From: a virus
DNA: 31,221 bases
IMG/VR virus record: IMGVR_UViG_3300029319_000208
Coordinates: 1 to 31,221 of that record
Strand: one strand, 5' to 3'
Within the stretch, counting starts at the first letter, position 1; the number at the start of each line of letters is the position of its first letter. The position numbers and the translations under genes are program-made. Positions 9,163 through 31,221 of this stretch are shown one piece after another. Under the pieces are notes generated by a model. The model worked only from the letters and a program-made list of their open reading frames with translations, was not told the origin of the DNA and ran no database searches.

Positions 9163-9166
<4 letters not shown>
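8984..9166 (-). CDS. small two-helix membrane protein
   Basis: This 60-residue protein has an amphipathic N-terminus (MIKKLWTWFVEAIKETLN) and two hydrophobic segments, about 20-35 and 40-57, separated by a short GSAQQ turn, ending in RK. The hairpin topology and size resemble class II holins, so it may be a second holin or a holin regulator. The ATG overlaps the poly-Thr gene stop (ATGA), so it is co-translated with it. Confidence 0.65.
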
Positions 9167-11109
<1,943 letters not shown>

Positions 11110-11447: not shown

Positions 11448-11750
11448 TTACTCAGGCTTTGGATTATCAGATTTAACTTTTGCTATAGCATCTTTCCAAG
11501 TAGTTGTACCATTTACTGAATCCCAATATTGTTGGTCCAGTTGGTCAGGTATACTTGCGTAAGCAGCTTGTCTTGCAGCAATGTAACCAAATTGTTGTTC
11601 TTCCCATTTAGAATTACCTAAATCAATCTTTTTTTGTGCATAATCTGCATCAGATAATTCCATTACAACACCATTAACTGATTTATTAAGAGGCTTTGCT
11701 GCCTCTATCTCTGCGTCTGCTTGTGCTTGTAGCTCTTCTTTTGTTGCCAT
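11448..11750 (-). CDS. small tail-associated-type protein
   Basis: This 100-residue protein has AGGAG six bases before the ATG. It has a helical N-terminus (ATKEELQAQADAEIEAAKP). The C-terminus, RQAAYASIPDQLDQQYWD then TTTWKDAIAKVKSDNPKPE, resembles the 'R...YPSI.DQLD..Y......W...I..VK..YPKP' ending of small phage proteins encoded beside tail fibres. It follows the six virion paralogs. It could be a fibre chaperone or minor tail component. Confidence 0.65.
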   Translation of the reverse strand: MATKEELQAQADAEIEAAKPLNKSVNGVVMELSDADYAQKKIDLGNSKWEEQQFGYIAARQAAYASIPDQLDQQYWDSVNGTTTWKDAIAKVKSDNPKPE

Positions 11751-11776: not shown

Positions 11777-12334
11777 TTACTTGTTGAGTCCATAAAGTTT
11801 AAATGTTCCTGCTGTCATATTATTTCCTGCGTCTAATGCTAGAAATACACCATCACTTGCACTTGCAACAGTATGTGCAAATCCTGCCTGGATACCTCTT
11901 ACTGCATTATCATTTTGTTGATAGTGTGCTTCTTCTATTGTTACAAAACTAAACTCTCCTGTATTAGGAAAATTAAATAAATAATAAATTCCATTTCCAT
12001 TACCACCACTTACAGAACTTTCAATAGTTGTCATGTAATCTATTTTGTTATTGTCTGGTGAACCAAAAGAAGTAAAACTAGCATCTGATTTTAAATAAGT
12101 ACCTGCTGAATCATAAGCAGCATCACTTTGTGCAGTGCCTGATTTAGTAACTCTCATTATTGGAACATCATCTGCTGAAACTTGTAAATTATTTACTGTT
12201 AATTTATAAACATTGTAAGTACCATCAATAGAATAATTTAAACCACTACTACCACTACTACCACCACCTATAGTGACATTTGCTAATGCACTAGATATAG
12301 TAAATTCATCTAATAAAACTAAACTACTTGACAT
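11777..12334 (-). CDS. tandem virion paralog A (short type)
   Basis: This 185-residue beta-rich protein is last of six tandem paralogs. Family features visible: an N-terminal strand region with TYNVYKLTVNNL, then AAYDSAGTYLKSDASF, IYYLFNFP, and the ending GTFKLYGLNK. Its closest relative here is paralog D: both share FxxEEAHxQ, VRGxQxGxxHTVAxAxDG and AGTFxLY. A Gly/Ser insert (GGGSSGSSG) near residue 25 is unique. It is probably an exposed tail or adhesin-type protein (jelly-roll/lectin-like is inference). The ATG overlaps the stop of paralog B. Confidence 0.75.
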   Translation of the reverse strand: MSSSLVLLDEFTISSALANVTIGGGSSGSSGLNYSIDGTYNVYKLTVNNLQVSADDVPIMRVTKSGTAQSDAAYDSAGTYLKSDASFTSFGSPDNNKIDYMTTIESSVSGGNGNGIYYLFNFPNTGEFSFVTIEEAHYQQNDNAVRGIQAGFAHTVASASDGVFLALDAGNNMTAGTFKLYGLNK

Positions 12335-12858
12335 TATGTAACTCCATATACTGCTATTTTTCCTGTGTCATAAGGTCTACTACCAACAGTACCAAATATT
12401 CTTATACCTCTAACTGCCTCTGCTACCTTATGAGCTGCTATTCCTTTAAAACCTCTACTTTGACCTGAAAATCTACCTGCACCTTGCCATGTAAAAAATG
12501 TAAATGCACTACTAATTTGTGGATTATACACATATAAATTACAACTCATACCATCAGGACTTTCATCTATTTTCATCAACCTATCTATTCTTTCAAAATT
12601 TTCATTTTTATTATCAGCATAACTTGTATCAGACCTTAGCTCATTAACTGCATAATCATAAACATTATCTGAATCAAGTGTTCCACTATCATCAATTATT
12701 CTTAAACTAATAGTTTCATCAGAAGAGCCAACTGTGGAAAAATCTGCAAAAGTAATTTGGTAAATATTATATTTACTTGTAAAAACATTATCTATATCTG
12801 TAACTTCTTGACTAGCAGTAATATCAAAACTTGTAATAAACTCTAAATTTGTAGCCAT
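12334..12858 (-). CDS. tandem virion paralog B (short type)
   Basis: This 174-residue member of the tandem family has VFTSKYNIYQITFADF, NVYDYAVNELRSDTSY and LYVYNPQISSAFTF, and ends GKIAVYGVT. It pairs best with paralog E: both share the VF-x-(4)-IYxIxF entry, a (W/G)(Y/F)KGxxxx stretch and SRPxxxG at the end. One base is shared with each neighbour (TAATG), so translation is coupled. No enzyme motif; a structural or receptor-contact role is inferred. Confidence 0.75.
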   Translation of the reverse strand: MATNLEFITSFDITASQEVTDIDNVFTSKYNIYQITFADFSTVGSSDETISLRIIDDSGTLDSDNVYDYAVNELRSDTSYADNKNENFERIDRLMKIDESPDGMSCNLYVYNPQISSAFTFFTWQGAGRFSGQSRGFKGIAAHKVAEAVRGIRIFGTVGSRPYDTGKIAVYGVT

Positions 12859-13496
12859 TAAAAACTCCTTATTCCATATAAAGTAAAAGCACCACCTGTA
12901 AAAGTAGAACTACCATTTATGTCAGGGTGAAATCTTAAACCATTATCAAACCTTGCTGTAGGGTGAACACCAATACCATATTCGACACCAGGCACACCAC
13001 CATTTGTCATAAATGTAGCGTGATAAGTAATAGTTGTACACCTTGCACTATTTAAAGCATTATAAATATATATATATCCACTTGTATTTTCATTTGTAGC
13101 ACTCCCTATATTGTCAGTTATCCTTAATCCAGGAAGAGAAGTGCCACTTCCATTGGTATAACTAGCAGCAGATGTTAATACTCTACCTGCTGAATGATAA
13201 GCAGTACCACTTGCAACACCATTTTTTAAAAGTTCTAAGCCTATTCTTTTATTATCATTAGCAATACTTAAGTCATTAAAGGTTACAAAAAAAACATCAA
13301 AATTTCCATAATCATCAAGTGCTAAAAAATCCACTGTTGATGCACTACTTATAGATTCATTTGTCAACAAAAGTTCTAGTTGTCCATACTTAGTAAATTT
13401 ATTTTCATTATCTAATTCAATAATTTGATTAGGTGTAAGCACACCTTTGTTACTTCTGAAGGCTTGTGTTACTGCATCTTTTGGTATATAACTCAT
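12858..13496 (-). CDS. tandem virion paralog C (long, anchored type)
   Basis: This 212-residue protein carries the family domain (NFDVFFVTFNDL, AYHSAGRVLTSAASYT, GYIYIYNALNSA, GGAFTLYGIRSF) behind an extra N-terminal segment of about 40 residues containing NKGVLTPNQIIELDNENKF and QLELL. Only paralog F shares this extension. Similar segments occur at the N-termini of phage tail proteins and may attach the protein to the virion. It starts four bases after paralog D ends, the only junction in the array without overlap, and begins the second triplet (C-B-A). Confidence 0.75.
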   Translation of the reverse strand: MSYIPKDAVTQAFRSNKGVLTPNQIIELDNENKFTKYGQLELLLTNESISSASTVDFLALDDYGNFDVFFVTFNDLSIANDNKRIGLELLKNGVASGTAYHSAGRVLTSAASYTNGSGTSLPGLRITDNIGSATNENTSGYIYIYNALNSARCTTITYHATFMTNGGVPGVEYGIGVHPTARFDNGLRFHPDINGSSTFTGGAFTLYGIRSF

Positions 13497-13500
13497 ATCT

Positions 13501-14004
13501 CTACACTACCTTATACAATGTAAATGTTCCTGCTTCAATATTTCCACTACCCATAAGAAAACTAATACCATCATTTGCTTCAGCAACTGTATGAACACCA
13601 CCACCTTGTAAACCTCTTACTGTTGTTGTTCCAGCCTGTATATGTGCTTCTTCTGATGTCATAAAACTATATTCAGAAGAATTGTTAAAATTATAAAGAT
13701 ACATAATCATACTGTAACCATTATAAGCATTTTCCATTGTTGAAGTTGGTGTCCACCTATTATTATTTGTTGAACTGTCAGTACCAAAACTTGTATCTGC
13801 TTTTAAATATTTGTTTGCATAATCATACTCACTATCACTATCAGCTACTCCACTTGTTGTTACCCTTGCATATAATTGAGCATCAGATGCAGGTTTCATA
13901 CCACTCATAGCAACCATATAGACATCATCACTATCTATGCCTGTCAAAGTTACACTAGCTACTGCACTTGTTACTGTATTTGTTGCTACTTGTACTAATC
14001 CCAT
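13501..14004 (-). CDS. tandem virion paralog D (short type)
   Basis: This 167-residue protein has DVYMVAMSGMKPASDAQLYA, SEYDYANKYLKADTSF and MYLYNFNNSSEYSFMTSEEA, then VRGLQGGGVHTVAEANDG, and ends GTFTLYKVV. It is closest to paralog A, three genes downstream, and more so than to adjacent E or C. One base overlaps E. It lacks the N-terminal extension. Confidence 0.75.
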   Translation of the reverse strand: MGLVQVATNTVTSAVASVTLTGIDSDDVYMVAMSGMKPASDAQLYARVTTSGVADSDSEYDYANKYLKADTSFGTDSSTNNNRWTPTSTMENAYNGYSMIMYLYNFNNSSEYSFMTSEEAHIQAGTTTVRGLQGGGVHTVAEANDGISFLMGSGNIEAGTFTLYKVV

Positions 14005-14519
14005 TATGTATCAACTCGCAATCCATAAGTTCTAAACACACCACTAGTAATTGGTCGTGAATTAAGTTCAAATGCTTGAAATCCTGTTACTGAAGTTGTT
14101 TCTGTAAAAACTTGAACACCTTTATACCATCTTCTTGTTTCAACTGCCACTTGATTGATAGCGAAAGTGTAAGATGAACTTGAAAAAGGATTGAATATAT
14201 ATGCAACCCCACTTACTAGCTCTGGCGCTTCATCTGGATTACCAAAAAAATTATTCCAATTTGTACCATTAGTTTGGTTGCTTTCTGTAAAAGATGCTTC
14301 ACCTTTCATAAGTAAAAAAGCATAATCATATTCTGAAGAACTTATAACACTTCCACTTGAATTTATAAGTTTACAATGTAAAGGTGTAGCGTCTGTTGTT
14401 GTAATTCCATTAAAAACTATTTTGTAAATATCAAAATCTGCTGAAAAAACATCTGTTACATTCACAGAAGATACATTTGAAGTTATAGTAGTTTCATTTA
14501 ATAATCTAAGGTTACTCAT
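14004..14519 (-). CDS. tandem virion paralog E (short type)
   Basis: This 171-residue protein has VFSADFDIYKIVFNGI, SEYDYAFLLMKGEASFTES and AYIFNPFSSSSYTFAI, then RRWYKGVQVF, and ends SGVFRTYGLRVDT. It shares SRP-x-x-x-G near the C-terminus and the VF-entry strand with paralog B. The ATG overlaps paralog F by four bases (ATGA). Confidence 0.75.
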   Translation of the reverse strand: MSNLRLLNETTITSNVSSVNVTDVFSADFDIYKIVFNGITTTDATPLHCKLINSSGSVISSSEYDYAFLLMKGEASFTESNQTNGTNWNNFFGNPDEAPELVSGVAYIFNPFSSSSYTFAINQVAVETRRWYKGVQVFTETTSVTGFQAFELNSRPITSGVFRTYGLRVDT

Positions 14520-15142
14520 ATCTGTTTTACTCCATAGAGTTTTACAGTAAATGAAGAAAAATTAGTACTAGCACTTCCTGTAAATCTAATTCCATCTACT
14601 GTACTTGTTTGTGGTAAAACACTTCCACCAAATAAACCAATACTTTGTGGACTAGCATCTTGGTCATCGTCCATTGATTGACTTGTAACAAAAGTATATT
14701 TTGAACTGTCATTTGCATTATAAATGTAGGCATATCCATTAGTAACATCATTTGTAAAGTTACCTAACAAACAATAAGTTTCCCCTGTACTCTTGTTTTC
14801 AGCGAAACCACCTGCTGTACCATAAGATTGCAAAGCATATTGATAAACACTTGCAGTTTCTAATACTCCACTTTCAAAAAATCTCAATGCAGGTAGTTCT
14901 TCTGAAGCAAAATCAACATTTGCCCAAGTTAAAAAGTGAACATTATATTTAGCACCTTTTATAGAAGTAAAATCTACTGCTGAAACTGCACTTGAATAAG
15001 TTTGTTCTTCAATAAGCTCTAAACTACCACCAAGATGTCCCTTTTTTTCTAATTCATAAGCCTCGGAAACAGATATTACACCTTGATTTTTTATTTGTTG
15101 TTTTATCTTGGTAGAAGTATCTCCCAAATATCCAAATGACAT
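14516..15142 (-). CDS. tandem virion paralog F (long, anchored type)
   Basis: This 208-residue protein is the first gene of the array, with AGGAG six bases before its ATG. The N-terminal extension has NQGVISVSEAYELEKKGHLG and SLELIEEQ, matching paralog C in position and pattern. The family domain follows: KYNVHFLTWANVDF, VYQYALQSYG, GYAYIYNANDSSKYTFVTS and the ending FTVKLYGVKQI. Presumed to be the virion-attached member of its triplet. Confidence 0.75.
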   Translation of the reverse strand: MSFGYLGDTSTKIKQQIKNQGVISVSEAYELEKKGHLGGSLELIEEQTYSSAVSAVDFTSIKGAKYNVHFLTWANVDFASEELPALRFFESGVLETASVYQYALQSYGTAGGFAENKSTGETYCLLGNFTNDVTNGYAYIYNANDSSKYTFVTSQSMDDDQDASPQSIGLFGGSVLPQTSTVDGIRFTGSASTNFSSFTVKLYGVKQI

Positions 15143-15151
15143 TGGTTACTC

Positions 15152-15484
15152 CTAATCTGTTATTTCAAGATAACTTGCAAAAAATTCTATATCAGATGCT
15201 GCTGATGCTTTTACTTGTATTTTATCAGTTGCCTCTAAAACTAATTTAGAAGTTCCTAATACATCTAATGATGTATCAGCAGGAACTGACATTTCAAAAG
15301 CAATATAGGAATCACCTGAAGAACCATCCACAACTCTTACATCTACAGTTGCATCATTAGTTCCATCTACGTTAGTTGCTCTAAGCATTAAGACTATTGC
15401 CTCATGATTAGCATCTAATGCAGGAATTAAATCTGCTAGAGATGTAGTTCCATCTGCGTATGCGTTCTTAAATACATTTGCCAT
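15152..15484 (-). CDS. small beta-rich virion protein
   Basis: This 110-residue protein has AGAGGA five bases before the ATG. It has repeated beta strands: AIVLMLRATNVDGTNDATVD, DVRVVDGSSGDSYIAFEM, then SKLVLEATDKIQVKASAAS. This looks like a small Ig-like or jelly-roll fold seen in phage head/tail accessory proteins. No Cys. It lies between the tail fibre and the paralog array, so a tail-tip or decoration role is likely by context. Confidence 0.65.
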   Translation of the reverse strand: MANVFKNAYADGTTSLADLIPALDANHEAIVLMLRATNVDGTNDATVDVRVVDGSSGDSYIAFEMSVPADTSLDVLGTSKLVLEATDKIQVKASAASDIEFFASYLEITD

Positions 15485-15494
15485 ATTATTCCTC

Positions 15495-16331
15495 TTATCC
15501 TAGTGCTATTATCAATCCAATATCTGCAAAGCCTTGTGCTGCTATTGTTGTGTCAACAAAGTCTTTCACTGCTGCTGATGTTGGAAGTGTTGTGTCGTTA
15601 TCGTTTGATGAAATACCTTCTGATTCTGTAACAAGTGTTCCTGCTTTAATATTATCTACTTCTAAATTAGAAACAGTATTATTGTCCGCATCTATTGTCT
15701 TGTTAGTTAGAGTTGCTGTTTCAGCATCAGCGTAATTTTTTACTGCTGCAGAAGTTGGTAAAGTAGTATCGTTATCATTTGAAGTGATTGTTTCACTTTG
15801 AGTAACAAGTGTACCTGCAGCAATTTCTGATGCAGTTACTGATACAGTAAATGTTAAATCGTATGGGTCTCCATCTGTTCCATTATCTGTATCTGTCCAA
15901 TCAATATCGATTCCACCACCTTCAACAAACTTAACTTCTCTTGCTGTATAAACTCCTGATGCAACAGCAGGGTTAATTGTAACCTCTGTGCCATCACCAT
16001 CTTCTAATACGAAACCTTGTTGTATGGCATCATGTGCCTCATCAAAATGTTGTTTTACTACAGCAAGTCTTACTTTTGTTCCTGCCGCATGTGTTGGGTC
16101 AGTTCCATGTTTTGAATCTATATCTCTTGTTACAGTAGCTGCAGTATGGTCTGTTCCTGATGACCATAATACTACTTCTCTGTTGCTGTCATTATCAGGG
16201 TCAATTACAAAATAAGCAGGTGAATCAACTCCTGGGTCTGCTGATAAATTCATTGATGAACCACCACTTGCTAATTGAGCTGCAAGTGTGGTCTCAAAAG
16301 CGTTTACTAAATTAGTTTCTCTTGCTACCAT
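15495..16331 (-). CDS. tail fibre protein
   Basis: This 278-residue protein has an N-terminal module (about 13-90) ending in HGTDPTHAAGTKVRLA, which resembles one in the connector-type gene at 18280. The middle is beta-rich. Two 32-residue repeats, 171-202 and 229-260, are 25/32 identical (AGTLVTxSE...SNDNDTTLPTSAAVK). Between them sits TLTNKTIDADNNTVSNLE, a typical phage tail-fibre strand motif. It is probably trimeric and located at the tail, with receptor-proximal proteins encoded downstream. GGAGAG precedes the ATG. Confidence 0.75.
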   Translation of the reverse strand: MVARETNLVNAFETTLAAQLASGGSSMNLSADPGVDSPAYFVIDPDNDSNREVVLWSSGTDHTAATVTRDIDSKHGTDPTHAAGTKVRLAVVKQHFDEAHDAIQQGFVLEDGDGTEVTINPAVASGVYTAREVKFVEGGGIDIDWTDTDNGTDGDPYDLTFTVSVTASEIAAGTLVTQSETITSNDNDTTLPTSAAVKNYADAETATLTNKTIDADNNTVSNLEVDNIKAGTLVTESEGISSNDNDTTLPTSAAVKDFVDTTIAAQGFADIGLIIALG

Positions 16332-21736: not shown

Positions 21737-22600
21737 TTATTGTTCTTGTAATCCTACAACTTCACCAGTTCTTGCTCGTGCTGCTCCAAGTCTTGCTGCA
21801 CTCTCTTGTTCAGACTGTCCTGCTATTCTTCCTAATCTAACTTGTTGTTCTTGTATACCTAATTGTGTAGCCTCAACTACATCTGTAGCAGATACACCTG
21901 TTCTACCTTGTCTTCTAGCCATAGCTAAAAATGATGGTGCTGCCTGGAATCCTTGTCTTGCTTGTTGCCTGGATAAACCTTGTTGTCTTAATTGTTCTGC
22001 TTGTTGTACATCTATGTCAACCCCTGCTAACAAAGCCTCACCACCAATCTCTGCACGAAGAATATTTTGTGATATTATATCTGCTCCTGTTATAGCACCA
22101 GTCTGTAAGTCTTGACTTATCTGTGGGTCTATAGCACTAGCTATAATCTCTGCATCTGTAAGTGTCTTACCAAAAGTTTCTTGATAAAATTGTTTTACTT
22201 CAGGTATAGCTGTAACTACCTGTTGATAAACTTGATTTATTCTTTTACCAAACTCTACATTACTAACAACATTTGTAATCAATGTTTCTATTCTGTCTTG
22301 TGTAAGAATTAAATCTGCATTTAAACCTATTGATTCTATCTTTCTTTTGTAAGCATCTACTAAATTAAGATACTCTGATTCACTGTATTTAACTGATACA
22401 CCATCAGGGTTTATGTTTCCAGGAAAGCTAGTTTGATATTCTGTTGATTGTCTCATAGCTATGATTGCCTCATTGGCATCTTGATTGTTTGCAATAAAAG
22501 CATCTATATAAATATCAATCAATGCACTTGGAAATGATGCACCAAATTTTGTTTGAACATTAGTTCTTAATCTTGCTTTAGCTTGTTCTGTCAATGCCAT
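21737..22600 (-). CDS. pre-scaffold structural protein (287 aa)
   Basis: The N-terminal part (AKARLRTNVQTKFG ... MRQSTEYQTSFPGNINPDGV) is followed by YSESEYLNLVDAYKRKIES and a long helical section; the C-terminus is Gln/Arg/Ala-rich (QQAEQLRQQGLSRQQARQG, AARLGAARARTGEVVG). The 'T..Y...F.GN..P.G....S..EYL....Y' module recurs in phage internal or tail proteins whose function is unknown. It ends the internal-protein block, with TAATG overlap upstream. Confidence 0.65.
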   Translation of the reverse strand: MALTEQAKARLRTNVQTKFGASFPSALIDIYIDAFIANNQDANEAIIAMRQSTEYQTSFPGNINPDGVSVKYSESEYLNLVDAYKRKIESIGLNADLILTQDRIETLITNVVSNVEFGKRINQVYQQVVTAIPEVKQFYQETFGKTLTDAEIIASAIDPQISQDLQTGAITGADIISQNILRAEIGGEALLAGVDIDVQQAEQLRQQGLSRQQARQGFQAAPSFLAMARRQGRTGVSATDVVEATQLGIQEQQVRLGRIAGQSEQESAARLGAARARTGEVVGLQEQ

Positions 22601-24363
22601 TATGTAGGTACTCCTCTAACTACTGATGAAGGAGCTATGCCTTCAATAATATTATCTTCTACTCTATCAAAGACTGTCTCAATATTATTATTCAAACCAT
22701 ACTCAAGAAGTATTTTATTTATTTCTTCCTGGTCATTTGACCTTAGTATATTTATAAACTCAGGTTTCTTTTCATCTATTCTTTCTCCTAAGAACTGAAA
22801 TGAATAGTTACGCCATGGTGATGCAATATCTTCGTATGTAAGATTTTCATCATACAAGTCTGTAGAAAACAATGCTTTTCTAATTGCTTTCAATCTTTCT
22901 TGTACTTGTGCCTCACCAATTTGAGGTGATTCTGCATTACGAATCATAGATGCAAACTCTGATATGTTTGCTGATTCAAACTCTGCAAAGGTAGGACCTA
23001 ACCATTTCAATGCAAGTTCTTGTGCTTTAGCAAAACCTGCTTGAGTGGTTTCAGGTGCAACTCCACCGACTACACCTTCTAACCACCCTTTGAGTTGATT
23101 GTCGACAGTTATACCTGCCATTGGGTCTCCAATAGCTTTGGCTTGATTTACTGTATGTAACTCTGTCCAGTTTCCATTAGATAATTGCAATGCAAAAAAC
23201 TCTATCAGACTTTCTCCATCAGGATTAAATATTGAATCAGCATTTGTTACACCATTTTGTTGCAACAAAGTTTTTGCACGAATAATATTATTATCTAATA
23301 GAGCTTGTGCATCTGCAGGTAGTTCTCCTATACCTCTTCCTTGTGAAACTAATAACCAATCTCTTTGTTCTTTTGTATGCGTTCTCCACCAGTTAGTTCC
23401 TTGCCACTCATAATCTTCTATATCTCTGTCTTCTATTATTCCTTCTAACCATAATGTATAAAGTTCCTCATCTTCCATCCATGGTTGTACATTTTTAATT
23501 CTTTGAAAATTTGCTACTAACGAATCAAAAGGATTAGCTAAACCTAATTTAATGTTTGCATCTATCTCTGTGTAATCACCTAAAAATAAAGAGTTATACC
23601 ACTCGTTAGAATCCGAGTCTACACTTCTAACGCCTGGCATACCTGTTGTATAAAATGTTCCAAGTTGTTCATCACTTGCTTGGTATCTAACAAACATATC
23701 TGTTCCTGGGATACCAAATACTAAAAACTTTTGTCCTGTTTCATCCTGCCAAATCTGTGAACTCATACGACCTATTTGGTCTCCTGATGTTGAACCTAAA
23801 AATGAACCTCCACCTGCTCCTGTGTTTCCCTCAAATAAAGGTACAGGACTCAAAGAATATCCATTAGATAATGCTGACTGTAAATCTGATTTGCTGAATA
23901 CTCTTTCTCCGCCTGATGGAGCATCACCTCTATATATTGCTATACCATTTTTATAATCATCAGCAGTAAATCCAAACTCATCTCTATCTCCTGATTGTGT
24001 TGATTCTGTAGGTGTTGATGTTGTCGCTCCTGATAAAGCATCTTCAAAAGCATTTGATTCATCTACACCCATTTCATCTGTAGTTTGTATGGTTGAATCT
24101 TCTGTTCCTTGACCACCTTGTCTTGCTATTTCTGTTTTAAAAGCAACTGCCTCTAATGAACCTGCTTGACTTGGTACTTGTGATTCAAAATCTGCTCTTA
24201 CTGATTCTGCTCTTTCTGCAGCATCTAATAATCTTTGGTCAGCACTGACTGGAAGTGTAGCTCTAAGTGCGGCAATCCTTCTTTCATATCTTCTTTTTTC
24301 ATACTCTTCCATGGTTATAGAACCATTTATTAAAGCAGTTACATCATTGTAATCTGTTGACAT
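22600..24363 (-). CDS. large internal/ejection-type virion protein (587 aa)
   Basis: This 587-residue acidic protein starts MSTDYNDVTALINGSI. A disordered Thr/Ser/Gln region (about 75-130) is followed by a globular part with FLVFGIPGTDMFVRYQ, then Trp-rich helical segments (WMEDEELYTLWLEGI, WQGTNWWRTHTKEQRDWLL). No Cys. No enzyme motif is recognised. Similar Trp-rich helical modules occur in phage injection proteins, but this is inference from the block context. One base shared with each neighbour. Confidence 0.6.
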   Translation of the reverse strand: MSTDYNDVTALINGSITMEEYEKRRYERRIAALRATLPVSADQRLLDAAERAESVRADFESQVPSQAGSLEAVAFKTEIARQGGQGTEDSTIQTTDEMGVDESNAFEDALSGATTSTPTESTQSGDRDEFGFTADDYKNGIAIYRGDAPSGGERVFSKSDLQSALSNGYSLSPVPLFEGNTGAGGGSFLGSTSGDQIGRMSSQIWQDETGQKFLVFGIPGTDMFVRYQASDEQLGTFYTTGMPGVRSVDSDSNEWYNSLFLGDYTEIDANIKLGLANPFDSLVANFQRIKNVQPWMEDEELYTLWLEGIIEDRDIEDYEWQGTNWWRTHTKEQRDWLLVSQGRGIGELPADAQALLDNNIIRAKTLLQQNGVTNADSIFNPDGESLIEFFALQLSNGNWTELHTVNQAKAIGDPMAGITVDNQLKGWLEGVVGGVAPETTQAGFAKAQELALKWLGPTFAEFESANISEFASMIRNAESPQIGEAQVQERLKAIRKALFSTDLYDENLTYEDIASPWRNYSFQFLGERIDEKKPEFINILRSNDQEEINKILLEYGLNNNIETVFDRVEDNIIEGIAPSSVVRGVPT

Positions 24364-27008
24364 CAGTCTTCACTTCCTGGTAAATATTCTTGTGCTATTC
24401 TACCATAGACATCTTGAAACAATGTTTCATGTATTTCTTTAGTTAAAGCGTAACCAATAGAGTATTTATCTGAGTACGCATCTTCTGTAAACCCATCCCA
24501 AAATGCTGATTTAAAACTTTCTTCATCTCCTCTATTTTTTGCCTCTGACAATCCTTTACCTACATCTGCTGCAAGTAAAGCCATTTCATAAGCTGTATAT
24601 GCTGCTAATGCAGGTGCAGATATAAAAGCTAAACCTAGTTTTGGTAGTAATCTTTTTATACCTTGTTCTATAATTACATCTCCTGGAGCAACTGCAGTCA
24701 TACCTGTACCAAAACCAACCTTTCCTGCTTTCTTAGCAAAATCTAAAGCTGTTCCTGATATGTGTCTTCCTACATCTGTATTTTTCAAAACATCTTCTGC
24801 TTGTGCTAATTTATTTTTATCAACAGACCTAGCAATATCTTCAGGTGTATCTGCAATCTTTCTAAATTCAGGAGGGGTAAAGTAATCTTGAGGTAAATTT
24901 TTTATAAATCTTTGCACATCATCTACAGCATTTGTAGGTGTGTCTGATTCTAGTAAATAATTATATTGTGCAGATAATTCTTTTTGAAAATTTGACATAC
25001 CTTCTGGTTTTTTTCTTGGGTCAATAGGATTACCTTCTGCATCTAAATCCCAATTTTCTATGTCTGCTAATACTGCATCTTCTATTGGTGAAGGTTCTTT
25101 GTAATCAAATAAAATAATATTTATACTTTCTAATTCTCCTGGTCCATAAGGTTTAGTTAAATTATATTGGTCTTTAAATAATTCAAGTTTATCTGCAACT
25201 TCTTTATTAGTATAATCTAATAATTGCTCTGCTCTATCAGCAGGAAGTCCTTTAATAAATTCATCATAATCTAAATATCTTTTAAGTAAACCCTCTTGTA
25301 AAGGTGGAGTTTGTATTTTATTTTTAATAATTCTTTCTAGTCTAAGTCTTTCATTTACTACATTTTGACCAGGATTATTAGGTGTTACTCTTAAAATTAA
25401 ACTATCCATATATCTTTCACCTAAAGGAGTAGGTCCACCTGGAGCTTTCTTAGGTATCTCTCTTAATTCTGTATCAGGAATATTGAATAAATTAGGTTTG
25501 CCTCCTATTCCTTGTTTAAGTATTTGTAATTGTGCGTTACCTCTTGTCATATTAGATACATCAAAAAATTTTGCTGTTCTACTATCTAAAACCTCTACTT
25601 TAAAATCAGGATTTTTTTCAACATAATCTAATAAAGCTACAGTTGGTGTCATGTGCATAGGTTCTGTAACAGCTATATCAAATATACTTGAATAATTATC
25701 AACACCAAGATTATTCTTAAACACATTCAATGCTCTACCTCTTATATCTAACAAAGCTAACTCCTTAGGTGTGTTAGTTTTTAGTAAATTTCTTTTTGTT
25801 ATGTAATCTGTTTCGTATTGTATTGGTACTCCTGCAGTTCTGATTGCAGAATCTGAATTTGCCATCATTCTAAAATCATCTTCTGCATCTTTTTTGAGTT
25901 CTAAAACATCACTTGTAAATTCTTTTAAGGTAGCAAAAAATGGTTCAATTCTTCCAGTGGGTGTAAATGACAGATTTCTTTCAGCTAGTCTTTTAAAAAA
26001 AGAATTACTTGTAACAAAATCTTCATCTTGTACATTAGTTACTAAAGCAACCGCAGCTCTTCTCGTAGCTTTATTTATTTTATAATTACTCATAAGCTCT
26101 ATCGAACCACCATACAAATCACTAAAATCACCATTTAGATACTTTAAATATTCTTTACGAAATGTTTTCATGTATTGATTTAGCATATTTCTAACACCAT
26201 AAAATACATCATCTGTTTGAAATTCCATTATGTCGCTCATTGATTTATTATTAAAATTTTTGTAATCACCTGTTAAATTATCCATTTCAAAATTATCTAT
26301 TATGTCTTCAATTATTTTTCCAGTATCTTTAGAAACATCTACAGCATTGTTTAACTCAATCATCAATCTATTTCCTAAACTTTCTCCTCCCAAAAAACCT
26401 CTTGTCAGCTCTGATTGTATTCTAAAATATTGTTCTATAATTGAGTCTTTTATCATTCCTATGTTTAAACCTATTTTTTTACCTTCTACATCTGTAAGTT
26501 CTTGTAAAGTTTCTAATGATTCTATTTTTTTACTAACTGGTAGTTTATTAAATACTTCAAGTGCCTCATCCAAAAATGGTTGGTTGTTATCTAATATAAG
26601 TTTTAACTCATCATCTAAATTTCCTGCATTTTTTACAATTTGATAAATTAAATCTCCTGTAGGATTCATTACATCATCAGCATTTTCTAACATACTTGCA
26701 GTAGGATAAAAACCAATACCATTATTTGATACATCTATATCAAGCATGTTTGATATTAAATTTAATTCTTTGTACTCAGGTAATATTTCTAATAAATCTA
26801 AAATAAATTTTTGAGTATCTTCTATTCCTGGACCTAATTTACCTCTAACATATTCATCTAGTAAAAAATCTTTTGTACTTTCGTGAATATAATCTAAAGA
26901 AAAAATACTTTCTGCAGCAATCTCTCTTACGCTTTTTGGGTTGATACCATTATTTGCAAATAAATTATCAATTTCGTTTAAAAAAGATTGATACTTACTG
27001 TCGCTCAT
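24363..27008 (-). CDS. large internal virion protein (881 aa)
   Basis: This is the largest complete gene of the window, with 881 residues. It is helical and Lys/Asp/Asn-rich, with a long low-motif body. A C-terminal Gly/Ala-rich hydrophobic region (about 785-835, including LGLAFISAPALAAYTAYEMA) could insert into a membrane. No catalytic motif is seen. Size, composition and place in the pre-scaffold block fit an ejection or tape-like protein. It overlaps the 63-residue gene by 14 bases. Confidence 0.6.
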   Translation of the reverse strand: MSDSKYQSFLNEIDNLFANNGINPKSVREIAAESIFSLDYIHESTKDFLLDEYVRGKLGPGIEDTQKFILDLLEILPEYKELNLISNMLDIDVSNNGIGFYPTASMLENADDVMNPTGDLIYQIVKNAGNLDDELKLILDNNQPFLDEALEVFNKLPVSKKIESLETLQELTDVEGKKIGLNIGMIKDSIIEQYFRIQSELTRGFLGGESLGNRLMIELNNAVDVSKDTGKIIEDIIDNFEMDNLTGDYKNFNNKSMSDIMEFQTDDVFYGVRNMLNQYMKTFRKEYLKYLNGDFSDLYGGSIELMSNYKINKATRRAAVALVTNVQDEDFVTSNSFFKRLAERNLSFTPTGRIEPFFATLKEFTSDVLELKKDAEDDFRMMANSDSAIRTAGVPIQYETDYITKRNLLKTNTPKELALLDIRGRALNVFKNNLGVDNYSSIFDIAVTEPMHMTPTVALLDYVEKNPDFKVEVLDSRTAKFFDVSNMTRGNAQLQILKQGIGGKPNLFNIPDTELREIPKKAPGGPTPLGERYMDSLILRVTPNNPGQNVVNERLRLERIIKNKIQTPPLQEGLLKRYLDYDEFIKGLPADRAEQLLDYTNKEVADKLELFKDQYNLTKPYGPGELESINIILFDYKEPSPIEDAVLADIENWDLDAEGNPIDPRKKPEGMSNFQKELSAQYNYLLESDTPTNAVDDVQRFIKNLPQDYFTPPEFRKIADTPEDIARSVDKNKLAQAEDVLKNTDVGRHISGTALDFAKKAGKVGFGTGMTAVAPGDVIIEQGIKRLLPKLGLAFISAPALAAYTAYEMALLAADVGKGLSEAKNRGDEESFKSAFWDGFTEDAYSDKYSIGYALTKEIHETLFQDVYGRIAQEYLPGSED

Positions 27009-27186
27009 ATCTAAGCCTTATTTCTTCATTTCTTGCCCTAGATACAATATCATTTAACTCTTTAGTTGCATCCTTATCTCCAACAGAATCAATTATATTT
27101 TGTCTGTTTTCTCTACGCCATTCTTGTAAATAATTAGGATTTATTTTAATTGCATTCTTATCGAATGGTGTAAATTTACTTGCCAT
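26995..27186 (-). CDS. small charged protein between virion genes
   Basis: This 63-residue, strongly charged helical protein (YLQEWRRENRQNIIDSVGDK, then VSRARNEEIRLRYERQ) starts at an ATG inside the end of the lysozyme gene and ends inside the 881-residue gene. The double overlap supports coupled expression. Function unknown; an internal-protein chaperone is possible. Confidence 0.6.
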   Translation of the reverse strand: MASKFTPFDKNAIKINPNYLQEWRRENRQNIIDSVGDKDATKELNDIVSRARNEEIRLRYERQ

Positions 27187-27994
27187 ACAATCCCCTTAAT
27201 ATATCTAATGCAACTTTTTGGTCATCAGATAGTGTCTCTCTTTTTCTATCCATACTCATGTCGTTAGATATATCAGGTAGATTCTTTGCTCTTCTCTGAT
27301 TGTTTATTGCTGCTTGTATTAGTGCAACCACTTGACTTTCTGATTTAGCTACTGCATTTGTAAAATCAACACCTTGACTCCATATATTAGAAATCACAGA
27401 ACCTGCTCTTACTTGGTCTTGCATATTGCTTGGATTAACATCTCTTACATTACCTGCTCTTACTTGGTCTTGCATATTGCTTGGATTAACATCTTGTATT
27501 GGTGAAGGGTCAAAGCCTTCTTCAGGTTCAGGTATTCCTCGGTCTTGGTCTAACATTGCCAATTCAATCTCCAATCTTTTTACAAGTCCAGGAAAGTTTT
27601 TTCTATCTTGTTCAGTTAAAGATGTCTCCCAAACTTCTTGTATTTTATCTTCATCATCTAACAGTAAAGCATCATAGAATTTTTTACTAGATACTTTGCT
27701 CGGTCTGTTAAAAGTAGCTATTACCATAGTATCAAATTGTTCTTGAGTAAATGTAAGATTATAATTTTTTAACCTTTGGTTTACAATACGAACAATCTCT
27801 TTTAAATCTTCTTTTAGTAATTGTTCTGCTTTATCCTCTGTAATTACATCACCGATATCAAACTGTTCACCACCTGATAAATTACTGTGTCCATATCCAA
27901 TAGATACTGATGCACCATCTTCATAAGCCTCAAGCTGTAAAGTCTCAAGCTCTTTTATGATTACTATCGCAGGAGGCGATACATCCATTTCCAT
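27176..27994 (-). CDS. GH24 lysozyme, virion-block
   Basis: This 272-residue protein has an N-terminal GH24 (T4/P22-type) muramidase domain, about 8-150. In IKELETLQLEAYEDGASVS and IGYGHS, E17, D26 and S31 align with the Glu-Asp-Thr catalytic triad; Ser replaces the usual Thr. Then ITEDKAEQLLKEDL, and FTQEQFDTMVIATFN. Residues 160-200 contain a 17-residue tandem repeat (DVNPSNMQDQVRAG twice). The C-terminal 70 residues are helical. It is flanked by large presumed ejection proteins rather than the holin, so it is probably a virion enzyme that opens peptidoglycan during entry. Confidence 0.8.
   Translation of the reverse strand: MEMDVSPPAIVIIKELETLQLEAYEDGASVSIGYGHSNLSGGEQFDIGDVITEDKAEQLLKEDLKEIVRIVNQRLKNYNLTFTQEQFDTMVIATFNRPSKVSSKKFYDALLLDDEDKIQEVWETSLTEQDRKNFPGLVKRLEIELAMLDQDRGIPEPEEGFDPSPIQDVNPSNMQDQVRAGNVRDVNPSNMQDQVRAGSVISNIWSQGVDFTNAVAKSESQVVALIQAAINNQRRAKNLPDISNDMSMDRKRETLSDDQKVALDILRGLYGK
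27401..27494 (-). repeat. perfect 43-bp direct repeats (51-bp period)
   Basis: Copies at 27401-27443 and 27452-27494 are identical. The period of 51 bp equals 17 codons, so the lysozyme frame is kept. Perfect identity suggests a recent or homogenised duplication. Confidence 0.9.
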
Positions 27995-28926
27995 TATCTC
28001 TTGACACCTGCTCTAAATAAATTTGTAAGATTAGAAACTGTCCTTGCACCTCTTGACCTTATCTGTTCACCAACTTCTTGTTGTCTTGCTGCCTCTTCTC
28101 TTGGTGCAAATACTTCTTCTTCTATATCAGATAAGTCTTCTGCAAGTTGTTCTGTATCAGGTTGTTCTCCTGGTTCAGGAGGTAAGTATGTTCCTTGTAA
28201 AGGATTTGTAGGGTCAAATACTAAATTACCTGAGGTAGCAGGTTTGAGTCCTTCTATCTCTGTGTTAAACATATCTAATCTCTGTTGTATCTTATTAGAT
28301 ATGTAGTTTCTTTCTTCTGCATTCAAAGGAGCGCCTTTTCTACTTTTTGCTTTTGTAAGTAAATCATCAACAATATCATCCATTTGTTCATTGTCTATTT
28401 TTGGAGATGTAGTTTTTACAGCTTTCCTTACACTGAAGTTTGTGCGTAGTACACCAAGACTTTGTAACCAATCTAATTTACCACCATTATTCATAGAAAA
28501 CTCCATAAGTCTTCTTATGCCTTTTACAAATTCTTCATCTACCATAGCACCTTGTGTTTTTGTAAGGTCAAGTAAACCAACACTTGCCATTTGATTTTTA
28601 AGTAAAACACGAACTGCAGGTTCTATATCTCTTGCCGCCTCTCCTGCTTGATATGGAAAATACACAAAGTCGTAACCTTGTGCAGTCAAGTATTGTTCTG
28701 CAGATACATCTCTTTCTACACCATCTACCTCAACTTTATACTTACTTTGAAATCCATCACCTAATGGTTTTCCTGATGGGTCTAAACCTCCTAGTACATC
28801 TAAAACAAACTGTGTAGCATCATCATTTTGTACTACATCTGATACATTAGGGTCAATGTCAATAACATCTTGTTTATCTCCATCACCTCTAGGTATTGTA
28901 TAGCCTTCTATCTCTCCATTACTCAT
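27994..28926 (-). CDS. internal-block protein (310 aa)
   Basis: This 310-residue acidic protein starts MSNGEIEGYTIPRGDGDKQD. The centre is helical (DEEFVKGIRRLMEFSMNNGG, DDIVDDLLTKAKSRKGAPL). A Pro/Gly linker (about 235-260) leads to a basic C-terminus with EQIRSRGARTVSNLTNLFRAG. No recognised family. Its ATG overlaps the preceding large gene by eight bases. Probably a minor internal virion protein by context. Confidence 0.6.
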   Translation of the reverse strand: MSNGEIEGYTIPRGDGDKQDVIDIDPNVSDVVQNDDATQFVLDVLGGLDPSGKPLGDGFQSKYKVEVDGVERDVSAEQYLTAQGYDFVYFPYQAGEAARDIEPAVRVLLKNQMASVGLLDLTKTQGAMVDEEFVKGIRRLMEFSMNNGGKLDWLQSLGVLRTNFSVRKAVKTTSPKIDNEQMDDIVDDLLTKAKSRKGAPLNAEERNYISNKIQQRLDMFNTEIEGLKPATSGNLVFDPTNPLQGTYLPPEPGEQPDTEQLAEDLSDIEEEVFAPREEAARQQEVGEQIRSRGARTVSNLTNLFRAGVKR

Positions 28927-31221
28927 CTGATAAATCTCCTATTCCATACTTGGTAACTTCATTATAAAACACATCTTGGAAGACTGGAAGAAACTCAGGA
29001 GTTTCTTGTGAAAGCAAAGAACCTTTTTTATACAGCAAATCACGAACTTGTTGTGCCTCCTCTGTATTTGTTGTTCTTATCCAGTTAACAGCATCTTCTT
29101 TTATAGCAAAGTTTTTGCCTTTTTGTACACCAATAATTACTTGATTCCTAAAATCAAGATAATCTTTCATCTCTTTATATAAATCTAAGTTTGCAGCTCT
29201 TGGGTCTTCAACAGCTTGTTCCAATATTGGTATAACTAAATCCCAATCAAATGTTCTTGGTATCTCTTTTCCTGGAAGTTTTGTTGCTACTTCAGCAGGA
29301 TTTATTTCATAAGCAAGAGGAAACATTTGTTTTAGTGTAAGTTCTAATTGTGCCATCTCTTTTTTCTGTTCCGATGCTGTATATTGTTGTGTATCCCATT
29401 TAGCTCTGTATCTTTCTTTCATTGCTCTTTCGACTATTGATGCTGCATAGGTAGCTGACCTCCAGTAAAACTCTTCTTTATTTAGTGGTGTAATGTTTCC
29501 AAGTCCTTTTTGTATTCCATAAGATGTATAATCAACATCACCACTTCCAAGACCACCAAAGAAATAAATTATACTTCCTCCATAATCTCCATATAATTCT
29601 TCATTATTCATCAAGAAATCATATTCAGGTTTTGTTCTTGCCATAGGTCCTGATTCAGATATGCTTTTACCTTTCAGTTGTAATTGTGCAGATGTAAAAG
29701 CAGAATCTATATCGTATATATCAAGACCTAGTAATCTTACAACCTCTAATGTTGCCTCATAGTCAGCTTGTTTCTGACCCATAGTAAGTGCATAGTGGTC
29801 TCTCAAATCTTGATAGAAACCATGTAGAATAGATAGTTCTACAAAACTATTCCAGGCTACACCTGAAGTTTCTTCTTGTGTTCCATACCATTCATTAAAT
29901 GTACTGTTTTCTGCATCAATACGATATAAAACATTTACCCTTGGAACTAATGGGTTTATGTTTCTATCCCATGCTTTCAACCAATAAATGTTATCTCTAA
30001 TTGTTGCAGCAGTGTCAAACAAAAACTCAGGGTCATCTGCTCTATCAGGATGTAGTATTGCTGCTATCTGTACAGATTGTGTTGTTGCACTAAGGTATAA
30101 ATCTTCATCAAGTCCTTGTAAATCTAATTTACTTGCTATAGCGTTAAAAGCATTTTTTGCTGTAGCAGGTAATATTTCTTCTGTAAGAATTTCTCCTATG
30201 ATACCTTTTAAGTCTCCATTACCCATAGATTCAAAAGGTAATCCAAATTGAAATATTGTTCTTTCTAATAATCTTCTTGTCTTTGGATTATCTCTTGTTG
30301 CAAAACCTGTAGGTATAGCAACAACTGGACCTAATGGTGGGAACAAGCCACCACCTGCAACTCCTAGTGCAGATATTGGAAAACTTCTTTTGATAATTAT
30401 ATTGCTTTCTTCAATACTTACATCATCTGTCCAAGTACCTCTACCTTCAGATTTAACATAATCTTCTAACGCAGTACCTCCAACAGGAAGTATTAAATAT
30501 TTTTCTCCGAACTTGTCTGTATAAATATAATTATTCTCAACACCTTTTCTATATGCAAAACCAACTTGAGCAACCGCTCTAGGATTAGCTACAGACAACT
30601 GTGTCCATCTACCAAGAACTTCTCTATATGCCTCAAAGAAAGGTAATCCAACTTTATAAGCCTCTGCTACATAACCTCTTTCTAATAAGTTATATAACAA
30701 ACGATTATGAAGTTCAAAAGCGTATGCAGATGCAGTTTTATTTAAATCATTAAATGTCATATTTCTTGTGGTTGTTTGTCTTATACCATCTAGGTCTAAC
30801 ATTGTGTGATAATCTATCTCTGTAAATTCAGAAACAATACCTGATTTCTTTGGATTGTTTAAGACTAATTTACCTGATTTAGAATCAACCATTGCAAGAA
30901 GTCCAGTTCTTTGCATAAACTCAGCTACATCATCATACTTCGTATTACCCATCTGTAATACTTTTCTTAATTCTTTTATTGTTGGTGTAGGATTTTCTTT
31001 GATAAGAGCCTTAAAATTAGTTGTAATATCAAAAGTATTTTTATCTGTTCCTGCATGAAATTCTTTTAAAACTTTCACAAACTGTCTATCTTGTGAAGAA
31101 TCAAGCACACCATCAACTAAAACATTTCTTCGAGGTAAAGTAGAGTGATAAGTTCCAATCTTAGTATTTTCATCACCTAATCTAATACCACCTGCTGTTT
31201 CAATAGAATATGCTTTACTTT
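28919..31221 (-). CDS. large internal virion protein, 5' partial
   Basis: The frame stays open to the right edge, so the start lies outside; a GTG at 31108 is internal. At least 767 residues are visible. The N-terminal part is helical (FVKVLKEFHAGTDKNTFD), a middle hydrophobic Gly/Pro stretch (ISALGVAGGGLFPPLGPV) could contact membranes, and a long helical C-terminus follows (WRSATYAASIVERAMKERYR). No portal, terminase or enzyme signature is visible to me. Context suggests an ejection protein; a tape-measure-like role cannot be excluded. Confidence 0.6.
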   Translation of the reverse strand, partial: SKAYSIETAGGIRLGDENTKIGTYHSTLPRRNVLVDGVLDSSQDRQFVKVLKEFHAGTDKNTFDITTNFKALIKENPTPTIKELRKVLQMGNTKYDDVAEFMQRTGLLAMVDSKSGKLVLNNPKKSGIVSEFTEIDYHTMLDLDGIRQTTTRNMTFNDLNKTASAYAFELHNRLLYNLLERGYVAEAYKVGLPFFEAYREVLGRWTQLSVANPRAVAQVGFAYRKGVENNYIYTDKFGEKYLILPVGGTALEDYVKSEGRGTWTDDVSIEESNIIIKRSFPISALGVAGGGLFPPLGPVVAIPTGFATRDNPKTRRLLERTIFQFGLPFESMGNGDLKGIIGEILTEEILPATAKNAFNAIASKLDLQGLDEDLYLSATTQSVQIAAILHPDRADDPEFLFDTAATIRDNIYWLKAWDRNINPLVPRVNVLYRIDAENSTFNEWYGTQEETSGVAWNSFVELSILHGFYQDLRDHYALTMGQKQADYEATLEVVRLLGLDIYDIDSAFTSAQLQLKGKSISESGPMARTKPEYDFLMNNEELYGDYGGSIIYFFGGLGSGDVDYTSYGIQKGLGNITPLNKEEFYWRSATYAASIVERAMKERYRAKWDTQQYTASEQKKEMAQLELTLKQMFPLAYEINPAEVATKLPGKEIPRTFDWDLVIPILEQAVEDPRAANLDLYKEMKDYLDFRNQVIIGVQKGKNFAIKEDAVNWIRTTNTEEAQQVRDLLYKKGSLLSQETPEFLPVFQDVFYNEVTKYGIGDLSDE

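Follow-up and report, generated by a model that had tools for sequence, protein, structure and literature searches.

A duplicated three-gene array in a marine tailed phage probably encodes heterotrimeric receptor-binding tips

Six tandem genes of a marine tailed phage consist of a three-gene unit that is present twice. Each unit probably encodes one receptor-binding tip composed of three different, homologous subunits (classes I, II and III), most likely as a 1:1:1 heterotrimer that docks via class I, with two slots for such tips in this phage. The genes lie in the window, the whole stretch of 31,221 nucleotides that was analyzed, which comes from a virus record of 34,593 bases and encodes an SU10-type major capsid protein (MCP; PF17236, E 8.7e-42). 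An ORF check placed all six on the minus strand at 11777-15142, in agreement with the initial annotation. The array and its neighbors are listed here.

15495-16331, minus strand: 278-aa fibre-like protein with TLVTESE..NDTTLPTSAAVK repeats; constant upstream boundary of the slot in relatives
15152-15484, minus strand: 110-aa gene, phrog_1276-like, adjoining slot 1; candidate docking adaptor
14516-15142, minus strand: F, class I subunit of slot 1 (208 aa), docking tag plus predicted beta-sandwich head
15026-15142, minus strand: slot-1 docking tag of F, about residues 1-39, SFGYLGDTSTKIKQ...KNQGVIS...GHLGG; disordered with a short helix at 25-33 in the AF2 model
14004-14519, minus strand: E, class II subunit of slot 1 (171 aa)
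13501-14004, minus strand: D, class III subunit of slot 1 (167 aa)
13497-13500, no strand: inter-triplet gap of 4 nt between D and C
12858-13496, minus strand: C, class I subunit of slot 2 (212 aa)
13383-13496, minus strand: slot-2 docking tag of C, about residues 1-38, SYIPKDAVTQAF...NKGVLTPNQIIEL
12334-12858, minus strand: B, class II subunit of slot 2 (174 aa)
11777-12334, minus strand: A, class III subunit of slot 2 (185 aa)
11448-11750, minus strand: 100-aa gene immediately after the array; constant downstream boundary in triplet carriers

The six proteins gave no significant match to Pfam or PHROGs. Elsewhere in the window, very large virion-type proteins (587, 881, 766 and >1088 aa) are encoded upstream of the capsid gene (22600-31219), as they are in the related locus L131; the three that were scanned had no PHROG match. 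The region 9163-11109 encodes a protein of 648 aa whose start is signal-like; it has very acidic repeats, long linkers of the form TTTTTTTT and a hydrophobic C-terminal segment. This protein has no Pfam match, and we take its threonine-rich linkers to be reminiscent of secreted actinobacterial proteins.

The initial annotation had described the six genes as paralogs, each closest to the one three positions away, and this pairing was borne out. All fifteen pairs are homologous (z of 9-38, pairwise scores against shuffled controls), and the highest-scoring partners are F and C (147), E and B (179), and D and A (300, 44% identity). The lead of the F-C pair is narrow, with scores of 142 for F-D and 141 for F-A, and the pairing becomes decisive once relatives are included. 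An ML tree of 63 paralogs resolved into three clades of 21, which group F with C, E with B, and D with A rather than neighboring genes: first and fourth genes (support 97/95), second and fifth (99/93), and third and sixth (100/97). These clades define class I, which is long and tagged, class II and class III, and the gene order I-II-III is kept throughout the related IMG/VR contigs, which number in the dozens. The motifs attributed to the pairs are present, SRPxxxG in E and B and EEAHxQ, VRGxQxG and HTVAxAxDG in D and A, and so is the N-terminal extension of F and C, although its motif reads GV(I/L)-x(6)-EL and not x(4) as annotated. The junctions from F to A are -4, -1, +4, -1 and -1, so that D to C is indeed the only non-overlapping one in the window. 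As a general mark of the triplet boundary this gap was rejected, since III-to-I junctions vary from -4 to +9 in relatives. Within triplets, the I-II overlap is -4 in 47 of 82 cases and the II-III overlap is -1 in 66 of 79.

With the capsid protein as query, 80 related loci were collected. In sixteen, the array comprises three or six genes and is found 5-6 kb downstream from the capsid gene; one of these contigs ends within the fourth gene, and two further loci carry divergent versions. More loci were gathered with D, a slot-2 class I protein and a class II protein as queries, and the order I-II-III was the same whichever class was the bait. The search for further triplets and for single-triplet relatives, which the initial annotation had proposed, was productive: 29 of 47 non-redundant complete arrays read 123123 and 13 read 123, with a median class margin of 100 bits. 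The remaining five were examined by eye: L031 has three genes in a divergent form, L119 has broken frames, the class of the last gene in L110 is ambiguous, and in L104 the missing class I gene, with a slot-2 tag, sits in the gap. The fifth, L071, is the only true single among the complete window-type arrays and is a natural single-gene version in the triplet slot. Its single 207-aa domain copy (L071:16121-16744) has a fibre-like N-terminus (VNTIGEYTSGNGVTIDGxLIKDG) and is flanked by the fibre gene on one side and the 100-aa gene on the other. Class III is divergent in a further locus, L228. A tblastn search of INPHARED with D and with a class III relative gave no match, and the sole match of one class II query in IMG/VR was a contig of identical sequence.

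Both sets are old. Within one phage, the proteins of slot 1 and slot 2 have identities of 0.32, 0.30 and 0.35 for classes I, II and III, which is not above the values between phages (0.31, 0.29 and 0.36). A recent duplication within the window phage was therefore rejected, as was gene conversion between the sets; most complete arrays, moreover, have two sets. The cassette duplication followed by divergence that had been put forward holds insofar as a unit of an anchor and two partners occurs twice, but not as a recent local event or as strict inheritance in blocks. Subunits are exchanged singly between phages: 33 pairs of distinct triplets have one subunit in common at ≥65% identity, and in 27 of these pairs a second subunit is only ≤45% identical, whereas five share all three and one is intermediate. 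In slot 1 of L107 and L111, for example, class III is 96% identical, class I 35% and class II 45%. The distances of the three classes do correlate (Mantel r of 0.39-0.57), as expected where slots and lineages also matter.

In the window family the N-terminal extension is confined to class I, and classes II and III have no tag. Identity of the extension is 0.64 and 0.61 within the two slots versus 0.34 across slots. Identical tag types are also found on unrelated glycine-rich proteins that occupy the same slot; those tested match Gly_rich_2 (PF21722). Thus, MVGPTTFGYQNLGFGAGG on the class I protein of L007 has its counterpart in MAGPTSFGYQNLGFGGG on the glycine-rich protein of L001, and MSKYGYIGPDSATPTQS occurs on class I of L015 and on the glycine-rich proteins of L003 and L046. 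Overall, GYxG-type tags were found on nine class I and eleven glycine-rich proteins, and PxxFG-type tags on eight and six, respectively. The 110-aa neighbor gene accompanies 20 of 20 slot-1 tags of the GYxG type and none of 14 of the PxxFG type, counts that include near-identical contigs and are statistically uncorrected; its product is a candidate docking adaptor. Because the extension is slot-specific, tracks the 110-aa gene and recurs on unrelated proteins of the same slot, it is best read as a docking tag. The anchor role that had been assigned to it is hence better supported than the window alone could reveal, and the family has the hallmark of a modular anchored receptor-binding module, a conserved N-terminal anchor common to unrelated distal modules of one slot.

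The contents of the slot vary further. In L001, L003, L005, L010, L018, L019, L022, L025, L046, L062 and L252 it holds a protein of the Gly_rich_2 type, some 270-340 aa long, and in most cases a small MAHFAxI-type gene comes next. L018 and L019 have two such proteins in tandem with one tag each, which indicates that two docking slots occur without triplets too. Another small tandem duplication occupies the slot in L065 (15550-16229), where two short paralogs (GLxKSxQHxT) of about 112 aa adjoin each other. After the slot, L001 (12939-14021) and L005 (18853-19995) encode proteins of 360-380 aa with a flavin-binding-like start (GKGTAGA) that by eye are tryptophan halogenase-like, and also PQPAKNFIPDWYK-type proteins of 230-250 aa. 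Two contigs of about 52 kb each, IMGVR_UViG_3300020468_000009 (L022/L045) and IMGVR_UViG_3300025769_000167 (L037/L078), have two MCP genes, and in the latter the MCP copies and the slots differ from each other. These contigs are possibly chimeric or concatenated assemblies.

A tblastn search of INPHARED with a class I relative gave weak matches to Pelagibacter phages. HTVC019P encodes exactly three consecutive paralogs, as do HTVC010P and HTVC034P, and all are annotated just as hypothetical proteins. The window-family profile matches the HTVC019P proteins with E values of 1e-18 to 1e-23 (D itself matches phrog_14820 at only E 0.077), which points to one superfamily for the window family and the phrog_14820 trio. 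In a tree of 139 proteins made by a quick method, window trios and pelagiphage trios form separate clades with support of 98 each, so the trio arose independently in each. In 80 IMG/VR contigs that match the third gene of HTVC019P, taken together with the cultured phages, complete arrays have three genes in 50 cases, six in two, one in 13, two in one and four in one, frequencies that are no unbiased census since the array scans were baited with trio members. The arrays of two and four resolve into L164, with broken frames, and L183, which has three genes and a neighboring long single. A domain query from HTVC026P returned four loci. Most pelagiphage-type singles are longer (235-362 aa), and in two that were tested the N-terminus is phrog_18673, named tail fibre by PHROGs (E 6.6e-69 and 1.3e-27), with the domain behind it. 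Short singles are found in the cultured phages Lederberg and HTVC035P; together with L071 they indicate that a single gene can suffice.

The AF2 model of D is all beta (pLDDT 96.9, pTM 0.91), and that of F has the same strand order after the tag. Against the PDB, the best match of D has a Z score of 7.8, with galectins at 6-7, and that of F has 8.9, to a GH32 C-terminal sandwich, with lectins at 6-7. The head is confidently predicted to be a beta-sandwich with hypervariable loops that resembles lectins at a middling level (Z 6-9), which gives just a hint of sugar binding. Variability of class III is highest at residues 85-89 and 124-128. A class III profile searched against PDB sequences returned chance matches to staphylococcal nuclease only. 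Predicted viral structures gave strong matches, with TM scores up to 0.93, and several of these are named tail fibre, collagen triple helix or lambda Stf repeat, which are typical trimeric fibre parts.

One dockable chain of three, overlapping genes and a count of three in two lineages make a 1:1:1 heterotrimeric tip the simplest reading. Each triplet would form a heterotrimer with pseudo-threefold symmetry, presumably in the tail, that class I takes to the virion by its slot-specific tag, with the untagged classes II and III held by class I. The I-II and II-III gene overlaps suggest that translation is coupled and that the subunits are made in equal amounts. The heads would touch the host surface through their hypervariable loops, and the window phage would have its own heteromeric tip in each of two docking slots. 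Recombination with relatives could then alter the binding surface one subunit at a time over three seats, and the tag would allow an unrelated glycine-rich adhesin to take the place of the entire tip. Against the heterotrimer count the need for interfaces that tolerate variation if single subunits are to be exchanged freely, the short single copies in Lederberg, HTVC035P and L071, and the middling match to lectins. Of the two sets of heteromeric, perhaps receptor-binding tail parts that the initial annotation envisaged, the doubling of a three-gene unit is observed and the rest is probable.

Each slot might instead carry three separate homotrimeric receptor-binding proteins, or a stacked chain in which a class I homotrimer is basal and homotrimers of II and III are distal. 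Homotrimers are the norm among phage fibres, there are precedents for fibre chains, and the pelagiphage trios keep similar N-termini in all three proteins, so that these trios may be three homotrimers. However, II and III are untagged in the window family, and separate or stacked parts predict no three, the copy number (as 3 or 6) of two independent lineages; we therefore judge homotrimers to be unlikely. We give very little credence to class I being the sole structural subunit with II and III as class I-derived assembly factors or chaperones. An assembly protein is often encoded after fibre genes, and the adhesin gene of the glycine-rich module is regularly followed by the small MAHFAxI-type gene, but II and III are members of the domain family of the class I head, match it in length, and diversify and recombine likewise, and the place after the array is already taken by a 100-aa gene from another family. 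Capsid decoration, or another virion part without host binding, is suggested by a weak PHROG match of F labeled head and packaging (E 0.19) and is highly improbable given that relatives fill the slot with Gly_rich_2 proteins beside fibre-like genes, that the domain is C-terminal on tail-fibre proteins in single-gene relatives, and that the diversity and exchange of each subunit fit host recognition.

Phage fibre tips are usually assumed to be homotrimers of a single gene. Returning to the heterotrimeric tip, we lean towards a combinatorial adhesin, with three seats filled from independently recombining variant pools and a tag on one chain, that has at least two origins among abundant marine phages, HTVC010P relatives included, and in which gene copy number reports tip symmetry. 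Independently exchangeable seats, if real, would give a small genome a combinatorial repertoire of binding surfaces, and the heterotrimer would give a function to "hypothetical" trios of phages that are among the most abundant in the ocean. The rule that short copies come in threes and singles sit on longer fibres would make it easy to predict from a genome whether tips are hetero- or homotrimeric, and cultured pelagiphages already allow it to be tested. In GenBank, the MCP relatives are from actinobacteriophages, and a contig from an Actinomycetota MAG (L252) encodes an 82% MCP homologue; there, the slot holds a glycine-rich protein with a PxxFG tag; the host is likely a marine actinobacterium.

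Mammalian complement C1q, with three non-identical chains from tandem paralogous genes and heterotrimeric recognition heads, offers an analogy to the window triplets, and homology is not claimed; unlike them it is not viral and has a collagen stalk on every chain. The pelagiphage trio phrog_14820 (HTVC010P, HTVC019P, HTVC034P) appears to share the domain family and likewise has exactly three genes in a row (in a few cases six), each coding for about 200 aa, but is a separate clade from an independent triplication, has an N-terminal segment on all three proteins and keeps positions less cleanly fixed. Searches of the open-access literature turned up no account of such trios for tailed phages. 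The initial annotation likewise knew of none; this stands for the cultured-pelagiphage trios, which are undescribed, but a three-gene heterotrimeric tail is already known in virophages. The tail of virophage DSLV2 is encoded by three consecutive genes whose proteins co-purify as a 1:1:1 heterotrimer, a proposed receptor-binding fibre conserved in 44 virophages (J Virol 2025, PMC12724248). The window family has the same fixed-order trio of consecutive, co-oriented paralogs, whereas DSLV2 has one set of a different protein family, with a T4 gp37-like needle and a PF07484 collar, and the accessible part of its report mentions neither a docking-tag swap nor subunit exchange (PMC12724248). No Pfam match to PF07484 (phage tail collar) was found in any of the six window proteins at E up to 1, so the window family is not a DSLV2-type member and would only work like one. 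Modular anchored receptor-binding proteins are also known already; those of a Klebsiella podovirus, for instance, have a conserved slot-specific anchor and an exchangeable recognition part, with more than one such protein per virion (PMC8262889). There, anchor and head are on one chain (PMC8262889), whereas in the window one tagged chain probably carries two separately encoded, independently exchanged chains.
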